This document shows, piece by piece, positions 14,828 through 20,114 of a stretch of 57,295 nucleotides of DNA. The first letter of the stretch is position 1. The number at the start of each line of letters is the position of its first letter. The notes beneath the pieces are model-generated. The model saw nothing but the letters and a program-made list of their open reading frames with translations, was not told where the DNA came from and searched no databases. A program made the translations under genes and the position numbers. Source of the DNA: Bacteroidota bacterium (GTDB lineage Bacteria > Bacteroidota > Ignavibacteria > UBA10030 > BY39); NCBI GenBank assembly GCA_030682385.1, contig JAUXOG010000054.1, positions 1 through 57,295 on the forward strand, given 5' to 3'.

Positions 14828-15310
14828 CTATAGTTTATAACCTATTTTTCTTAAAAACTCTTTTCTATATTTAATATCGTCATCTGTTTCGACGCCCTTA
14901 GTCTTTACCCCATCAATTACACCGAGGATTCCACGGCCTTGTTCGGTTTCAGCAATGATTACTTCGACTGGGTTGGCTGTTGCGCAAAAGATATTGCAAA
15001 CCTCCGGCACCATTTTAATCGTATTTAGTATGTTTATCGGAAAACCATTTTCCATAAACAAAACAAAGGAATGACCGGCGGATAAAATCATAGCATTCTT
15101 CTTTGCAATTTCGATTAAGTTTTGGTCGTTACCTATATAGCGTGCGAGCGACGGACCTGACGCTTCACAAAACGCAAGCCCGAATTTGATATTAGGGTTT
15201 GTCGAAACCACAGCTTCGTAAATATCTTCGACAGTTTTTATAAAGTGCGACTGCCCGAGTATGAAGTTCATATCGGCTGGTTTTTCAATTTTTACAATTT
15301 TCAGTTCCAT
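14828..15310 (-). CDS. Adenosine-specific kinase (DUF355 family)
   Basis: A 160-residue protein matching the small archaeal/bacterial family characterised as adenosine-specific kinase by structure and binding. Signature segments are GLAFCEASGPSLARYIG, AGHSFVLFMENGFPINIL and the C-terminal GRGILGVIDGVKTKGVET. It is cytoplasmic and single-domain. The likely role is salvage phosphorylation of adenosine to AMP, which is based on family knowledge. It lies 24 bases downstream of the Mut7-C gene on the same strand and may be co-transcribed with it. Confidence 0.88.
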   Translation of the reverse strand: MELKIVKIEKPADMNFILGQSHFIKTVEDIYEAVVSTNPNIKFGLAFCEASGPSLARYIGNDQNLIEIAKKNAMILSAGHSFVLFMENGFPINILNTIKMVPEVCNIFCATANPVEVIIAETEQGRGILGVIDGVKTKGVETDDDIKYRKEFLRKIGYKL

Positions 15311-15334
15311 ACTATTCTCCTATAATAAAGTATA

Positions 15335-15799
15335 TTAAATTTTCTTATCCAAAATCCGACTTAATTTTTTCATGGTATTAATTATATGCGCCCCTTTCCA
15401 AAATACCTTCTTGCATTTCGGGCATTCGTAAAACTCAGTAAACCCTTCCCACGACCGTTGCGGAACCCTGTCTTTAACAGTTTCCTTATCAATGACTTTT
15501 TCTACTTCTACATTACATTCAACACATCGTGTAAAAAGTTTAGCGTTAATATCTAAACTAAACTGTGCGATAACACGTTTCATCTGAACGTCAAAGTTTT
15601 CGCTGCAGATGTCGTAAAGAGTAACCGGTGTAATGCTCTCGGGAAAAGATTTCCGGCGAGTTAGAAACACCCGCTCCTCGCTGTTGCTTATATCTACCAG
15701 TTCTTTAAGCGGTTTATAGGAATCGTAAACAACATCGTTTCCTATAAGGCGAAGCCAACGGGCTAATTTCTCGAGCATCGTATCAGCCACAAATTTCAT
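15335..15799 (-). CDS. Mut7-C RNase domain protein with zinc ribbon
   Basis: A 154-residue protein of the Mut7-C/DUF82 family. The N-terminal half is a PIN-like fold starting KFVADTMLEKLARWLRLIG, with the acidic D5 typical of the predicted nuclease site. The C-terminal half is a zinc ribbon, with CVECNVEV and YECPKCKKVFWKG giving four cysteines. Family members are predicted RNases; the substrate is unknown. It marks the left border of the inserted methylase-ATPase-Vsr cassette, which is transcribed away from it. Confidence 0.87.
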   Translation of the reverse strand: MKFVADTMLEKLARWLRLIGNDVVYDSYKPLKELVDISNSEERVFLTRRKSFPESITPVTLYDICSENFDVQMKRVIAQFSLDINAKLFTRCVECNVEVEKVIDKETVKDRVPQRSWEGFTEFYECPKCKKVFWKGAHIINTMKKLSRILDKKI

Positions 15800-15874
15800 G
15801 ATAAACCTCTAAAGACTTTTACTAAATTTACGGATTTATTAGTTCAAAAATCAAGTTAATACAAACAATTATTC

Positions 15875-15903
15875 TTGACGGAGGTTGTGTAAGAATTTAT
15901 TTT
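15875..15903 (+). promoter_or_regulatory. Candidate promoter for the methylase cassette
   Basis: TTGACG (15875-15880) and TATTTT (15898-15903) are separated by 17 bases and lie 40 bases before the methyltransferase ATG. The -35 fits the consensus well, the -10 only partly. A similar pair, TTGACT-17-TAATTT, precedes the FG-GAP gene. Confidence 0.4.
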
Positions 15904-15943
15904 TACATATATTCAAACACGAAATAATCTAAAATAGTTATTA

Positions 15944-17014
15944 ATGAAGAGTAAGAGAAACCATACTACAAAAAAGAGAATCGTTGCGACGGATATTTTC
16001 TGTGGAGTTGGGGGACTTACAAGAGGTTTGCTAGACGCGGGTATAGAAGTAGTGGCTGGCTATGATATTGATGAAGCATGCAAGTATCCTTATGAAAAAA
16101 ATAATTACCCAGCGATATTCAAAAGGGAAAGCGTTACTGAACTAAGTGGTGGTGAACTTTCAGCATTATATCCAGATGATTGTTTGAAGGTATTAGTCGG
16201 ATGTGCGCCTTGCCAACCATTCTCGAAGTACACACAAGGTAACGATAACTCAAAAGATGAAAAATGGGGTTTACTTTATCAGTTCGGTAGATTGATCGAA
16301 GAATTGAAACCTGATGTATTGAGTATGGAAAATGTTCCTGATTTGAAACGGCACGATGTTTTCAAAGATTTCATTGGGTTACTTGCAAAGAACAAATACA
16401 AAGTTTCCGTTTATGAAGTATATTGCCCTGATTATGGAATACCTCAAAACAGAACACGGTTAGTTCTGTTCGCTTCGTTGTTGGGACCAATCGAAATCAT
16501 TCCTCCGACACACTCGAAGGATCGCTACAAAACCGTAAAAGATGCGATTGGAGGATTACTTCCAATAAAAGCGGGGGGTATTCATCCGAAGGATAAACTC
16601 CATAAAAGTGTAAGACTTGAAGAAATCAATATCAAAAGAATACAATCGTCGATTCCTGGGGGGACTTGGCGGGACTGGCCTGAAAGCTTAATCGCGAATT
16701 GCCATAAAGATGAAAAAGGGAAAACATATTCCAGCGTATATGGCAGGATGAAATGGGATGAACCTTCTCCTACAATTACGACACAATTTTATGGTTTCGG
16801 TAATGGAAGATTTGGACACCCGGAACAAGATAGAGCTATATCATTAAGAGAAGGTGCAATTTTGCAATCCTTTCCTAAGTATTATCGATTTGTTGAACCA
16901 AGAAAAGAATTGTCTTTCAAGGAAATCGGTAGAATGATTGGAAATGCTGTACCTGTTCGGTTAGGGAAAATTGTGGGTCTATCAATATTAAATCATATGG
17001 GAAAAAATGGCTAA
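15944..17014 (+). CDS. DNA (cytosine-5)-methyltransferase
   Basis: A 356-residue C5 DNA methyltransferase with motifs in the usual order: I (DIFCGVGGLTRGLLDAG), IV with the catalytic PCQ (GCAPCQPFSKY), VI (MENVPDL), VIII (QNRTRLVLFAS), IX (LREGAILQSFP) and X (GNAVPVRLG). The target-recognition region is short, between VIII and IX. It would methylate a short site and protect it from a partner nuclease. Its last eight bases overlap the GHKL ATPase gene and a Vsr gene follows, forming a three-gene cassette. The specificity cannot be read. Confidence 0.95.
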   Translation: MKSKRNHTTKKRIVATDIFCGVGGLTRGLLDAGIEVVAGYDIDEACKYPYEKNNYPAIFKRESVTELSGGELSALYPDDCLKVLVGCAPCQPFSKYTQGNDNSKDEKWGLLYQFGRLIEELKPDVLSMENVPDLKRHDVFKDFIGLLAKNKYKVSVYEVYCPDYGIPQNRTRLVLFASLLGPIEIIPPTHSKDRYKTVKDAIGGLLPIKAGGIHPKDKLHKSVRLEEINIKRIQSSIPGGTWRDWPESLIANCHKDEKGKTYSSVYGRMKWDEPSPTITTQFYGFGNGRFGHPEQDRAISLREGAILQSFPKYYRFVEPRKELSFKEIGRMIGNAVPVRLGKIVGLSILNHMGKNG

Positions 17015-18659
17015 AATAAGTAGAGATCAATTTACATTCAATATTTCACTGAGTGTATTAAATCATTTAGGAAGAAATTTATATAGGAGTTTTGTGACTG
17101 TTCTGGGAGAGGCGATTTCAAACTCGTGGGATGCCGATGCAAAAAATGTCTGGATCCATGTGGATAAAGATAAAAACAGTTTTTTCATAAAGGACGATGG
17201 GATTGGAATGACGGGAGTTGATTTTCAAAATAAATTTTTGAAAATAGGGTACTCTAAAAGAAAAGATGGAACCTCTGAATCGCCAAAGGGCAGACCATAT
17301 ATAGGAAGAAAAGGTATAGGAAAATTGGCGTTGTTGTCTTGCGCAGATAAAATTACTGTCATATCCAAAACGAAGAGTACAGAATATGTTGGTGGAACTA
17401 TTGATAATTCAGGATTGGATGATGCTATAACAGCTGATTTAACTCCACAAGAATATTCTTTAGGAAATTATGACGAAAAAATATTTGCGAAATATACGAA
17501 GGGCCATAAGCAAGGGACAATTATTTATTTCGAAAGTATAAAAGGTGGGATAAAGAACAGCTTGGGGCTTCTTAAAAAAATTATTGCACTATATTTCAGA
17601 TTTTCTCTATTAGATAAATCGTTTAATATTTTCATTGATGCTGATAAAATTACATATAAACATCTCAGCGAACTTGCTGAAAAAACAGAATTTGTGTGGA
17701 ACATCAATAATTTAAGCGATCCATATATCGAAAAACAGCTTACGAGCCTAAAGGAGAAGAAAAATTTAAAAGTAAAAGGTAAGATTCAAGGTTTTATAGC
17801 TTCTGTAGATAAATATAGAGACCTTACGATTATGAATCTTGCTGAAAGGGTTAGTATCGACCTATTTGTAAATGGCCGGTTACGTGAAAGAGATATATTA
17901 AAACACATTTCTAAATCTCGAATAGTCGATAATTATTTGTATGGACAGATTCATTTTGATGAGTTGGACGATAATACGAAAGATAGATTTACAAGCAATC
18001 GGGAGGGTGTGATTGCTGATGATTCAAAATATCAAGGATTTCTGAAGATATTGAGTGATGAGGTTTTAAATATTATTATTGATGACTGGGACAAATGGAG
18101 AAGAAAACATAGGAAGCCTGGTGATGCAGACAATCCAAGCATATCTCTAAAAGATAGAAAATCTGAAGAATTGTTTGATGTTGTTTCGGAAGAATATTCA
18201 CCTCCGAGGGGTTCTGCTAACAAAACAAAGGTAGATGGATGGGTCAATGGCTTGACTGATGATGCAAAATACAATTTCGGTTCCTATGCGGAGTGTTTTA
18301 TCTCCGAAAACTTAATTCGAAAATATATTGAAGAAAAGAAAATCCCATTATCAAAAGAAGCCAAAGAAGCCAGAGATAAATGGAAAAAAGCAGAAGTTGA
18401 CAACAAAAATAAAGGAAATATAAGCATAGAAATAAGAAGAACGAGTAGTGATTTGAGTTATTTGGCGATGAATGATTTGGCGTATTTGGTGGATAAAAAG
18501 GATCCTACCAAGGAAGCTTGTCTTGCAAGAGATGCAAACGAATACAAGCCGATTAGAGATGCGTTATCGCATACTGCTCTTTTGACCGATGTAGCAAAAC
18601 AAAAATTAACATCGGTCTATGAAAATATTAAAGAAAGAATAAAGACTTTATTGTCTTAG
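17007..18659 (+). CDS. MORC/MutL-like GHKL ATPase with HEPN-like C-terminus, R-M associated
   Basis: A 550-residue protein starting with a GHKL ATPase fold: N-box GEAISNSWDADA (E35-N39), DDGIGM (D63-G67) and the lid GRKGIGKLALL (G100-G105). This matches the MORC/Hsp90-like ATPases that Iyer, Abhiman and Aravind linked to restriction-modification loci. A conserved S5-like region follows to about residue 350. No PD-(D/E)XK motif is visible. The last 60 residues read as two helices with R517-D-A-L-S-H522, an R-x4-H pattern of HEPN ribonucleases. It is translationally coupled to the methyltransferase, so it is probably the restriction or sensor component. HEPN nuclease activity is inference. Confidence 0.85.
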   Translation: MAKISRDQFTFNISLSVLNHLGRNLYRSFVTVLGEAISNSWDADAKNVWIHVDKDKNSFFIKDDGIGMTGVDFQNKFLKIGYSKRKDGTSESPKGRPYIGRKGIGKLALLSCADKITVISKTKSTEYVGGTIDNSGLDDAITADLTPQEYSLGNYDEKIFAKYTKGHKQGTIIYFESIKGGIKNSLGLLKKIIALYFRFSLLDKSFNIFIDADKITYKHLSELAEKTEFVWNINNLSDPYIEKQLTSLKEKKNLKVKGKIQGFIASVDKYRDLTIMNLAERVSIDLFVNGRLRERDILKHISKSRIVDNYLYGQIHFDELDDNTKDRFTSNREGVIADDSKYQGFLKILSDEVLNIIIDDWDKWRRKHRKPGDADNPSISLKDRKSEELFDVVSEEYSPPRGSANKTKVDGWVNGLTDDAKYNFGSYAECFISENLIRKYIEEKKIPLSKEAKEARDKWKKAEVDNKNKGNISIEIRRTSSDLSYLAMNDLAYLVDKKDPTKEACLARDANEYKPIRDALSHTALLTDVAKQKLTSVYENIKERIKTLLS

Positions 18660-18712
18660 CAGATAAGTATTGTATATACTCCAAAATAATTATCATCATA
18701 GAGAATCTAGTT

Positions 18713-19123
18713 TTGGATATAGTATCAAAAAGAAAACGCTCTTGGATAATGTCGCGAGTTTCACAGAAGAACACTCCTCTCGAGAAAATTATCCAACGCG
18801 AATTGAGAAAACGGGGAATAAAGTTTTCACATCACGTTAAAACCTTACCAGGAAGTCCCGACATCGTTTTTCAAGATATGAAAATTGCGGTATTCGTAGA
18901 CGGTGATTTTTGGCATGGCTGGAGATTTCCTGTTTGGGAACACAAACTCACTTCATTCTGGCATAAAAAAATTTCTACCAATAGAAAGCGTGATCAACGT
19001 AACTTCCGAAAACTTAGGTCACTCGGATGGCGTGTTATTCGAATATGGCAGCATCAGTTGATAAACAATAAAGAGCTATCAATCCAGAAGATTCTTCAAG
19101 GAGTATCTCATAGGCGAAGATGA
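18713..19123 (+). CDS. vsr: Very short patch repair (Vsr) endonuclease
   Basis: A 136-residue Vsr-family nuclease, which in E. coli nicks at T-G mismatches created by deamination of 5mC. Visible: SKRKRSWIMSRVSQKNTPLE at the N-terminus, the metal/active-site PDIVF, VFVDGDFWHG and the C-terminal GWRVIRIWQHQL. The TTG start at 18713 is preferred over the ATG at 18749 because it retains the conserved SxRSxxMSxI segment. The cassette lacks a separate classical restriction nuclease, so this protein may act as repair enzyme or as the nuclease of the system. Confidence 0.9.
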   Translation: MDIVSKRKRSWIMSRVSQKNTPLEKIIQRELRKRGIKFSHHVKTLPGSPDIVFQDMKIAVFVDGDFWHGWRFPVWEHKLTSFWHKKISTNRKRDQRNFRKLRSLGWRVIRIWQHQLINNKELSIQKILQGVSHRRR

Positions 19124-19150
19124 TATCAATTTTAACTCCAATCAGAACTC

Positions 19151-19681
19151 ATGAATCTAAAACAAGAAATTCTCCGAGAACATTCTAAACGTCAGGTGAA
19201 GAAGATTGCAAGCTGGGTCGGAGGCGATAAAAGTCGTTTGAAAAAGTTGATGGAATTGTTCCTCTCCGACGATTACATCATAAGTCAGCGTTCGGCATGG
19301 TGTATAAGTCAATGTGCCGACAACAATCCGGAACTTTTGAATCCGTGGCTTAAGCCGATGATTAGGAAAATGCAGGAACCCGGTGTGCACGATGCAGTAA
19401 AACGTAATGTTCTCCGGATTCTTCAAAAAGCTGACATCCCAACTTCGCTCCTCGGCATAGTTGTGTCGCTCTGCTTTGATTATCTTAACTCCCTCAAAGC
19501 TCCTATTGCCGTTAAAGTATATTCCATGGCGATATTGATGAATGCTGCAAAACGAGAAAAGGGACTTAGGAACGAGCTTAAATTGGTTTTAGAAAATATG
19601 CAGCCATACGTTGGTCCGGCGCTTCAAGCCAGAAGCAAGGCAATATTACGAGAACTTATGGGTGGTTCTAATCCGCCTTAG
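19151..19681 (+). CDS. Helical (HEAT-like) repeat protein, C-terminus supplied by a repeat
   Basis: A 176-residue all-helical protein. Three to four helical pairs are visible, for example DYIISQRSAWCISQCADNNP and HDAVKRNVLRILQKADIP, similar to HEAT repeats. There is no signal peptide. The final residues GGSNPP and the stop codon come from a dispersed palindrome (TCCGCCTTAGGCGGA at 19672-19686), so the natural C-terminus may have been altered. It starts 28 bases after vsr, but its sequence looks like a host conserved gene rather than part of the cassette. Confidence 0.65.
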   Translation: MNLKQEILREHSKRQVKKIASWVGGDKSRLKKLMELFLSDDYIISQRSAWCISQCADNNPELLNPWLKPMIRKMQEPGVHDAVKRNVLRILQKADIPTSLLGIVVSLCFDYLNSLKAPIAVKVYSMAILMNAAKREKGLRNELKLVLENMQPYVGPALQARSKAILRELMGGSNPP

Positions 19682-19724: not shown

Positions 19725-20114
19725 TTAAAAAAAACTACCCTTATGAGAATCTAAATAATTCCCATCTCTATCAATCCCAAATCCCCAAACTTGTGGTGAG
19801 CGAAGTCGATATTCTTTTGGAGGATAAGTTCTGATGTCAGAAAAATCTAAATCAAGGCTAACTAAAACCTTTTTCTCTTTTTTGCAAATGTCAGCAATTG
19901 TTGAATCAGGTTTTCCGCTTAAATGTTCTTCATAAACTGTGCAAGCTTCCCAATTTTCTGATTTTAATAAATCAGCTAATTCGACAGGTAAATTTTCATC
20001 TAATTTGAAAATTACAGTTATGCGGAAATTTTTGTTATAATTATTCGTTCCTTTGATGCACGCTTTACCATGACATACGTTTGGGTCGACCGAAACTTGA
20101 TCGAGTAAATTCAT
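19725..20114 (-). pseudogene. Decayed DUF433-DUF5615 antitoxin/toxin fusion remnant
   Basis: The 129-residue frame starts like a DUF433 antitoxin (MNLLDQVSVDPNVCHGKACI) but switches after about 24 residues to a DUF5615 PIN-like protein (FKLDENLPVELADLL, LSGKPDSTIADIC, VLVSLDLDFSDI). A deletion seems to have fused the start of the antitoxin to the toxin, removing nearly all the antitoxin. After TYPPKEY the expected PGIIVLRL ending is missing; the last 27 residues derive from the dispersed repeat that reads CTTGTGGTGAGC on the plus strand. The PIN-like acidic residues remain, so residual activity cannot be excluded, but the structure suggests a broken module. Confidence 0.7.

Follow-up and report, generated by a model that had tools for sequence, protein, structure and literature searches.

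A restriction-modification-like cassette in a Bacteroidota genome with a probable Swt1-like HEPN domain in place of the DNase of a BbrUII/HgiDII-type ATPase

Introduction

ParaMORC proteins were described in 2008 in restriction-modification (R-M) loci together with methyltransferases and Vsr (PMC2292703), which bears out the remark in a preliminary description of the present locus, credited to Iyer, Abhiman and Aravind, that MORC/MutL-like ATPases have been reported in such loci. MORC proper is defined by the S5 motif GhXhhpXXRhl (PMC2292703). Among the closest described systems are the BbrUII/HgiDII Type II restriction enzymes (NF050001; paraMORC3-like), in which a GHKL and S5 region of ~370 aa is followed by a C-terminal PD-(D/E)xK nuclease region of ~290 aa, and which are encoded next to an overlapping C5-cytosine methyltransferase (MTase) gene; M.HgiDII, an MTase of this type, recognises GTCGAC (PMC5867850).

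Other tails are also known on this kind of ATPase. Fusions of paraMORC to a Ymh HEPN domain in R-M loci were predicted in 2013 to be analogues of PrrC/RloC (Anantharaman et al. 2013, PMC3710099), and GHKL-TIR proteins of the paraMORC4 type have been reported (Iyer et al. 2008). In the literature PrrC and RloC are HEPN RNases tied to DNA-modification systems and proposed to act as a suicidal back-up, PrrC having an ABC-type ATPase and a Type I linkage. The catalytic motif of HEPN RNases is R-x4-6-H with a polar residue after the arginine, and the characterised HEPN nucleases cut RNA without metal (PMC3710099). Vsr itself is best placed by the Dcm-Vsr pair of Escherichia coli, which serves VSP repair. 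Here we compare with these systems a three-gene cassette found in a 57,295-nucleotide stretch of a Bacteroidota genome (the window; contig JAUXOG010000054.1). The open-licence papers searched contain no description of the Swt1-like HEPN clade to which it belongs, and no experiment on either type of paraMORC-HEPN protein.

Results

A three-gene unit gained or lost as a whole

ORF, Pfam and NCBIfam analyses confirm that an MTase gene overlaps a GHKL ATPase gene and is followed by a vsr gene, each where the preliminary description had placed it (Table 1). The overlap of the first two, which likely couples their translation, recurs in 63 of the 75 homologous MTase-ATPase pairs scored.

Table 1. 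Features of the cassette and their positions in the window.
Feature	Position	Strand	Size or residues	Evidence
Whole unit	15850..19161		~3.3 kb	Segment missing at the same site in same-genus genome G001 (blastn of flanks)
C5-cytosine DNA methyltransferase	15944..17014	+	356 aa	PF00145 E 2e-51; motifs PCQ, ENV, QxRxR, GN
MTase/ATPase gene overlap	17007..17014	+	8 nt	
GHKL/S5 ATPase with C-terminal HEPN-like domain	17007..18659	+	550 aa	PF13589 E 8e-21
BbrUII/HgiDII-type GHKL + S5 region	17031..18125	+	residues 9-373	NF050001 294 bits
Swt1-like HEPN-like domain (probable)	18147..18656	+	residues about 381-550	Helical model, VIA, profile links
E434-N435-L-I-R438 motif	18306..18320	+		E434, N435, R438 invariant; aligned with EN(S)LR in Swt1-like proteins
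Predicted RNase active site R517-x4-H522 (form R-x4-6-H)	18555..18572	+		Invariant 76/76
Vsr mismatch endonuclease	18713..19123	+	136 aa, TTG start	PF03852 E 2e-20; TIGR00632; 1cw0 E 7e-19

Comparison with a genome of the same genus (G001) shows how the cassette is delimited. G001 DNA aligns to window positions 14829-15849 and resumes from 19162, with ~91 unrelated bases between (blastn). Because the same site thus exists without the cassette, and the left Mut7-C gene and the right HEAT-like gene lie side by side there, the cassette is a single unit, gained or lost as one. The block missing from G001 contains only the MTase, ATPase and Vsr genes. The proposal of an R-M-type cassette with no separate restriction nuclease is upheld. 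The association is also more than chance: the unit is missing as a whole in G001, and the MTase is kept beside the ATPase in 81 of 84 homologous Swt1-HEPN loci from many phyla (tblastn). DISARM was considered, the best PADLOC hit of the MTase being DrmMII, and was rejected, the drmA, drmB and drmC partners being absent and the block having three genes only.

Two neighbouring ORFs may be mentioned. The HEAT-like ORF that adjoins the cassette (19151-19681, plus strand) has a counterpart in G001 with an in-frame stop and ~200 missing bases, so that the G001 copy may be decaying. Further right, one ORF on the minus strand (19725-20114) joins a short DUF433-like N-terminus (a 17-residue match) to a DUF5615 PIN-like domain. 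Since the two usually occur in separate antitoxin and toxin genes, this ORF may represent a toxin-antitoxin pair that has fused or decayed.

The ATPase has a restriction-enzyme N-terminus but lacks the DNase

The second gene had been described as a MORC ATPase. Its product is indeed a MORC-like GHKL ATPase, with the four GHKL ATP-binding motifs and the S5 fold; the ATP-site residues E35, N39, D63-D64-G65-x-G67, G100-x-K-G-I-G-K106 and G170-T171 are invariant in 75 homologues, and a model of the full-length protein (pLDDT 84) matches Hsp90, TRAP1 and MORC2 in Foldseek at E about 1e-13 to 1e-12. The motif of MORC proper, however, is replaced by SIDLFVNGRLR at residues 283-293, in which S stands in place of G and the last aliphatic position is taken by the invariant R293, and for this reason the sequence assigns the protein to the paraMORCs and not to MORC proper. 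Its first 365-370 residues or so match NF050001 over model positions 1-369 of 659, where the match stops, so that the score of 294 bits stays below the cut-off of 550 bits. By sequence, then, it has the same N-terminal region as the BbrUII/HgiDII (paraMORC) restriction enzymes and belongs to their lineage.

What follows this region is different. Long relatives score above the NF050001 cut-off (about 650 bits for L011, 801 bits for L013) and have a D...(x)ELK-type nuclease motif; a C-terminal PD-(D/E)xK nuclease of this kind is present in L011, L012, L097, L099, L101 and L126. The nuclease of MORC-associated systems, which the preliminary description held to be often unclear, is therefore not always so, as full-length NF050001 members bring their own DNase. 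The window ATPase lacks the D...ELK-type motif and also the segment that separates S5 from the nuclease in the long relatives, which may help them to recognise DNA. The sequence comparison thus indicates that the PD-(D/E)xK domain has been lost in the window clade and that a HEPN-like domain has taken its place.

A probable Swt1-like HEPN domain

The C-terminal domain comprises ~170 residues, is all helical, and has R-x4-H and E-N-x-x-R motifs that are invariant in 75 of 75 homologues; across the homologue alignment R384, C430, E434, N435, R438, R517, H522, T523 and L534 do not vary. The first motif reads R517-D-A-L-S-H522, with a polar D or N after the arginine, and has the form of the HEPN R-x4-6-H motif in a helical bundle. 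Modelled alone (pLDDT 93), the domain forms such a bundle with R517 near a helix end and H522 just before the last helix. VIA-align places structures already known as HEPN or HEPN-like (MntA-HepT, Csm6, HI0074, 2q00 / SSO SsR10) at all of ranks 1-7, with Z 6.7-7.2; among helical bundles a Z of about 7 is modest.

A link to Swt1 comes through intermediate sequences. A profile of the C-terminal domain finds two proteins of about 255 aa in other genomes of the phylum, L115 and L116, at E 2e-4 with ENxxR and Rx4H aligned; both carry a Swt1-like HEPN tail, L115 scoring above the curated cut-off of PF18731 (HEPN_Swt1) and L116 just below it. Their profile scores of 24-25 bits lie above those of about 3,600 shuffles, of which the best reached 12.1, and above the 9.3 of the best unrelated ORF. 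By eye, DUF262/HNH-type and RhuM-like ORFs, which may be additional defence genes, are seen near L116.

No Pfam or NCBIfam model, the Pfam HEPN models included, matches the domain directly; the sequence profile gives only weak DEPTOR hits against the PDB (E 0.28 and worse), and Foldseek with the domain model finds no significant match. As the best Foldseek E is 1.7, the HEPN assignment relies on the motif, the topology, the VIA ranking and the intermediate sequences, from which we conclude that this is very probably a Swt1-like HEPN domain. Ymh HEPN (PF09509) was rejected as its identity, since PF09509 matches neither the window protein nor appears among the families listed for the 75 homologues; none occurs in the whole genome that carries the window. 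Swt1-like HEPN domains form a predicted RNase family, and the replacement of a DNase domain by one of them points to RNA cleavage. The earlier argument that DNA cleavage must come from the ATPase or from Vsr finds no support here, Vsr being moreover optional.

Distribution and associated genes

A homologue scan with one genome per species gave 80 full-length ATPase relatives with 48-76% identity, all about 550 aa, from Bacteroidota, Chloroflexota, Patescibacteria, proteobacteria, archaea and more. Apart from the MTase and Vsr, no gene recurs across the Swt1-HEPN loci. On the Celeribacter plasmid pP73D (L010, 6475-7896) an IS1380 element has inserted into the family ATPase gene and splits it, leaving the MTase intact. 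This fits a picture in which protection depends on the MTase whereas the effector can be dispensed with.

The MTase resembles the M.HgiDII group by sequence rather than the CCWGG-specific Dcm of E. coli, and its target-recognition region aligns with that of M.HgiDII relatives. One conserved target-recognition stretch (PGGTWxDWP...CH...SVYGRMxW...TTQ...GNGRFGHP) is common to the MTases of the Swt1-HEPN, DNase and TIR types, which are mostly 49-57% identical to the window MTase. Because this stretch is conserved and M.HgiDII recognises GTCGAC, a GTCGAC-like site is predicted for the window enzyme. MTase and ATPase distances are correlated (r 0.65, Mantel p 0.0005).

A looser relationship is seen with Vsr. 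The window protein passes the curated cut-off of TIGR00632 (100.6 against 97.85 bits) and, like E. coli Vsr, lies near a C5 MTase and keeps the catalytic residues (E24, D50, FWH and RD), but it differs from the E. coli protein in lacking the zinc ligands (C66, H71, C73 and C117 are not conserved) and in having D in place of H64. Vsr is directly downstream in only about 22 of the 84 Swt1-HEPN loci and occurs anywhere in the fetched flanks in 34 (tblastn). The Vsr partners of the clade fall into several lineages, and even in the locus with the closest ATPase (L014) Vsr is 43% identical to that of the window, against 77% for the ATPase. Vsr also stands beside relatives with a DNase (L126, L129), a TIR domain (L102, L139) or a Ymh HEPN domain (L137, L140). 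Vsr thus tracks the 5mC MTase, a pattern to be expected if it repairs deaminated 5mC.

Exchange of effectors on a shared chassis

NF050001 relatives from the same phylum include DNase types (L126-L129), GHKL proteins with Ymh HEPN and GHKL proteins with TIR. The Ymh type, previously predicted as paraMORC-Ymh fusions, is represented by L137 and L140 (PF09509, E 3e-25 and 6e-13) and, by motif, L138. As in the window, a GHKL ATPase with a C-terminal HEPN domain is encoded beside a C5 MTase; in contrast, the HEPN domain is PF09509 and not Swt1-like, the MTase is of another subgroup (39-40% identical to the window MTase) and the ATPase falls in a separate clade. A tree built on the N-terminal region separates the Swt1-HEPN proteins from the rest with support 100 and places the Ymh-HEPN proteins in a distant clade. 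Since the two are separate and distant, the tree indicates that HEPN has been acquired at least twice on this chassis.

L139 and L102 (6001-9499, on a viral contig) encode a GHKL ATPase with a C-terminal TIR domain, of the paraMORC4 type, together with an MTase 52-56% identical to that of the window and an adjacent Vsr. The L139 tail matches SpbK (E 3e-7), a TIR protein of abortive infection. By sequence these loci are a TIR version of the window cassette, sharing its GHKL chassis, MTase type and Vsr and differing in having a SpbK-like TIR effector where the window has HEPN. The same MTase type with another effector is what would be expected if the chassis were the sensor and the tail a swappable effector.

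Discussion

We think it fairly probable that this is an R-M-like defence cassette of abortive-infection type, guarded by modification, with a HEPN (predicted RNase) effector in place of a DNase. The computations establish which genes and domains are present, that the motifs are invariant, that the DNase domain has been lost, and that the MTase is linked while Vsr is optional; the trigger, dimer activation, RNA target and phage defence are projected from the protein families, and the Vsr role and methylation site are likewise predictions. A plausible scenario is that the MTase would mark a fixed site in host DNA, by prediction GTCGAC-like, and that the GHKL/S5 part would sense foreign or unmethylated DNA or the loss of methylation. 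ATP-dependent dimer closure would then pair two HEPN domains, and the R517-x4-H522 site would cut RNA and so arrest the infected cell. Vsr would repair the T:G mismatches that arise by deamination of the system's own 5mC, sparing methylated host sites from mutation. The likeness to PrrC/RloC lies in a HEPN RNase tied to DNA modification, but in the window the HEPN domain replaces the DNase inside a restriction-type protein.

The main alternative within the same R-M/HEPN frame, possible if unlikely, is a guard or toxin-antitoxin logic, in which the MTase protein or methylation restrains the HEPN RNase and phage attack on the MTase or host DNA frees it, individual unmethylated sites not being sensed. 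The overlapping genes and near-universal MTase pairing would suit it, and HEPN toxins tied to R-M systems, like PrrC, have been proposed to act so (PMC3710099); direct sensing of DNA is nevertheless favoured by analogy, as the GHKL/S5 part is shared with enzymes that restrict unmethylated sites. That ancestry, the MTase family shared with the DNA-restricting BbrUII/HgiDII systems, and best PADLOC hits labelled Type II REase could also be taken to mean that DNA is cut at unmethylated sites by the ATPase-HEPN protein, which would then be a Type II restriction enzyme of the usual kind but for its unusual nuclease domain. This is quite improbable: the PD-(D/E)xK domain is absent, and the domain present is HEPN-like, whereas those HEPN nucleases that have been characterised act on RNA and need no metal (PMC3710099).

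It is also improbable that unmethylated sites in DNA are cut by Vsr, brought in by the MutL-like ATPase, with the HEPN-like domain serving only as structure. Vsr does lie directly downstream within the block missing from G001 with its catalytic residues kept, Vsr-family endonucleases were predicted in MORC operons (Iyer et al. 2008), and a Vsr-like protein of Caulobacter is required for the DNA-damage response upon loss of methylation (PMC12907096), by analogy with which Vsr may have some restriction-like effect. But its optional presence, the different lineages found even beside the closest ATPases, and its occurrence next to DNase, TIR and Ymh-HEPN relatives argue that Vsr is probably not the missing cutter, and such a role would leave the invariant R-x4-H unexplained. 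Lastly, the MTase could have a regulatory or DNA-maintenance ATPase partner with no part in defence, and the literature searched yielded no phage test of the Swt1-HEPN clade; we regard this as very improbable given the patchy presence of the cassette, its carriage on plasmids, the second MTase or Vsr genes nearby in several loci, the swappable effectors, TIR and HEPN among them, and the restriction-enzyme ancestry of the ATPase.

The wider proposition, for which we put the chances at about even, is that unmethylated DNA is answered with RNA cleavage by one member of a family in which a single combination of 5mC MTase and GHKL/S5 chassis has been fitted with swapped DNase, Swt1-like HEPN, Ymh HEPN and TIR effectors, HEPN having been gained at least twice. 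The common Vsr neighbour would, as argued above, be a repair accessory and not a hidden restriction nuclease. If this is true, R-M, which destroys foreign DNA, and abortive infection, which stops the cell, would be one domain swap apart on a shared sensor of self and non-self, and many genes annotated as Type II restriction enzyme or 'ATP-binding protein' would become RNase effectors. One chassis that occurs with DNase, HEPN or TIR tails, and with MTases to match, would then offer a tractable set for learning what prokaryotic MORC-like ATPases sense.
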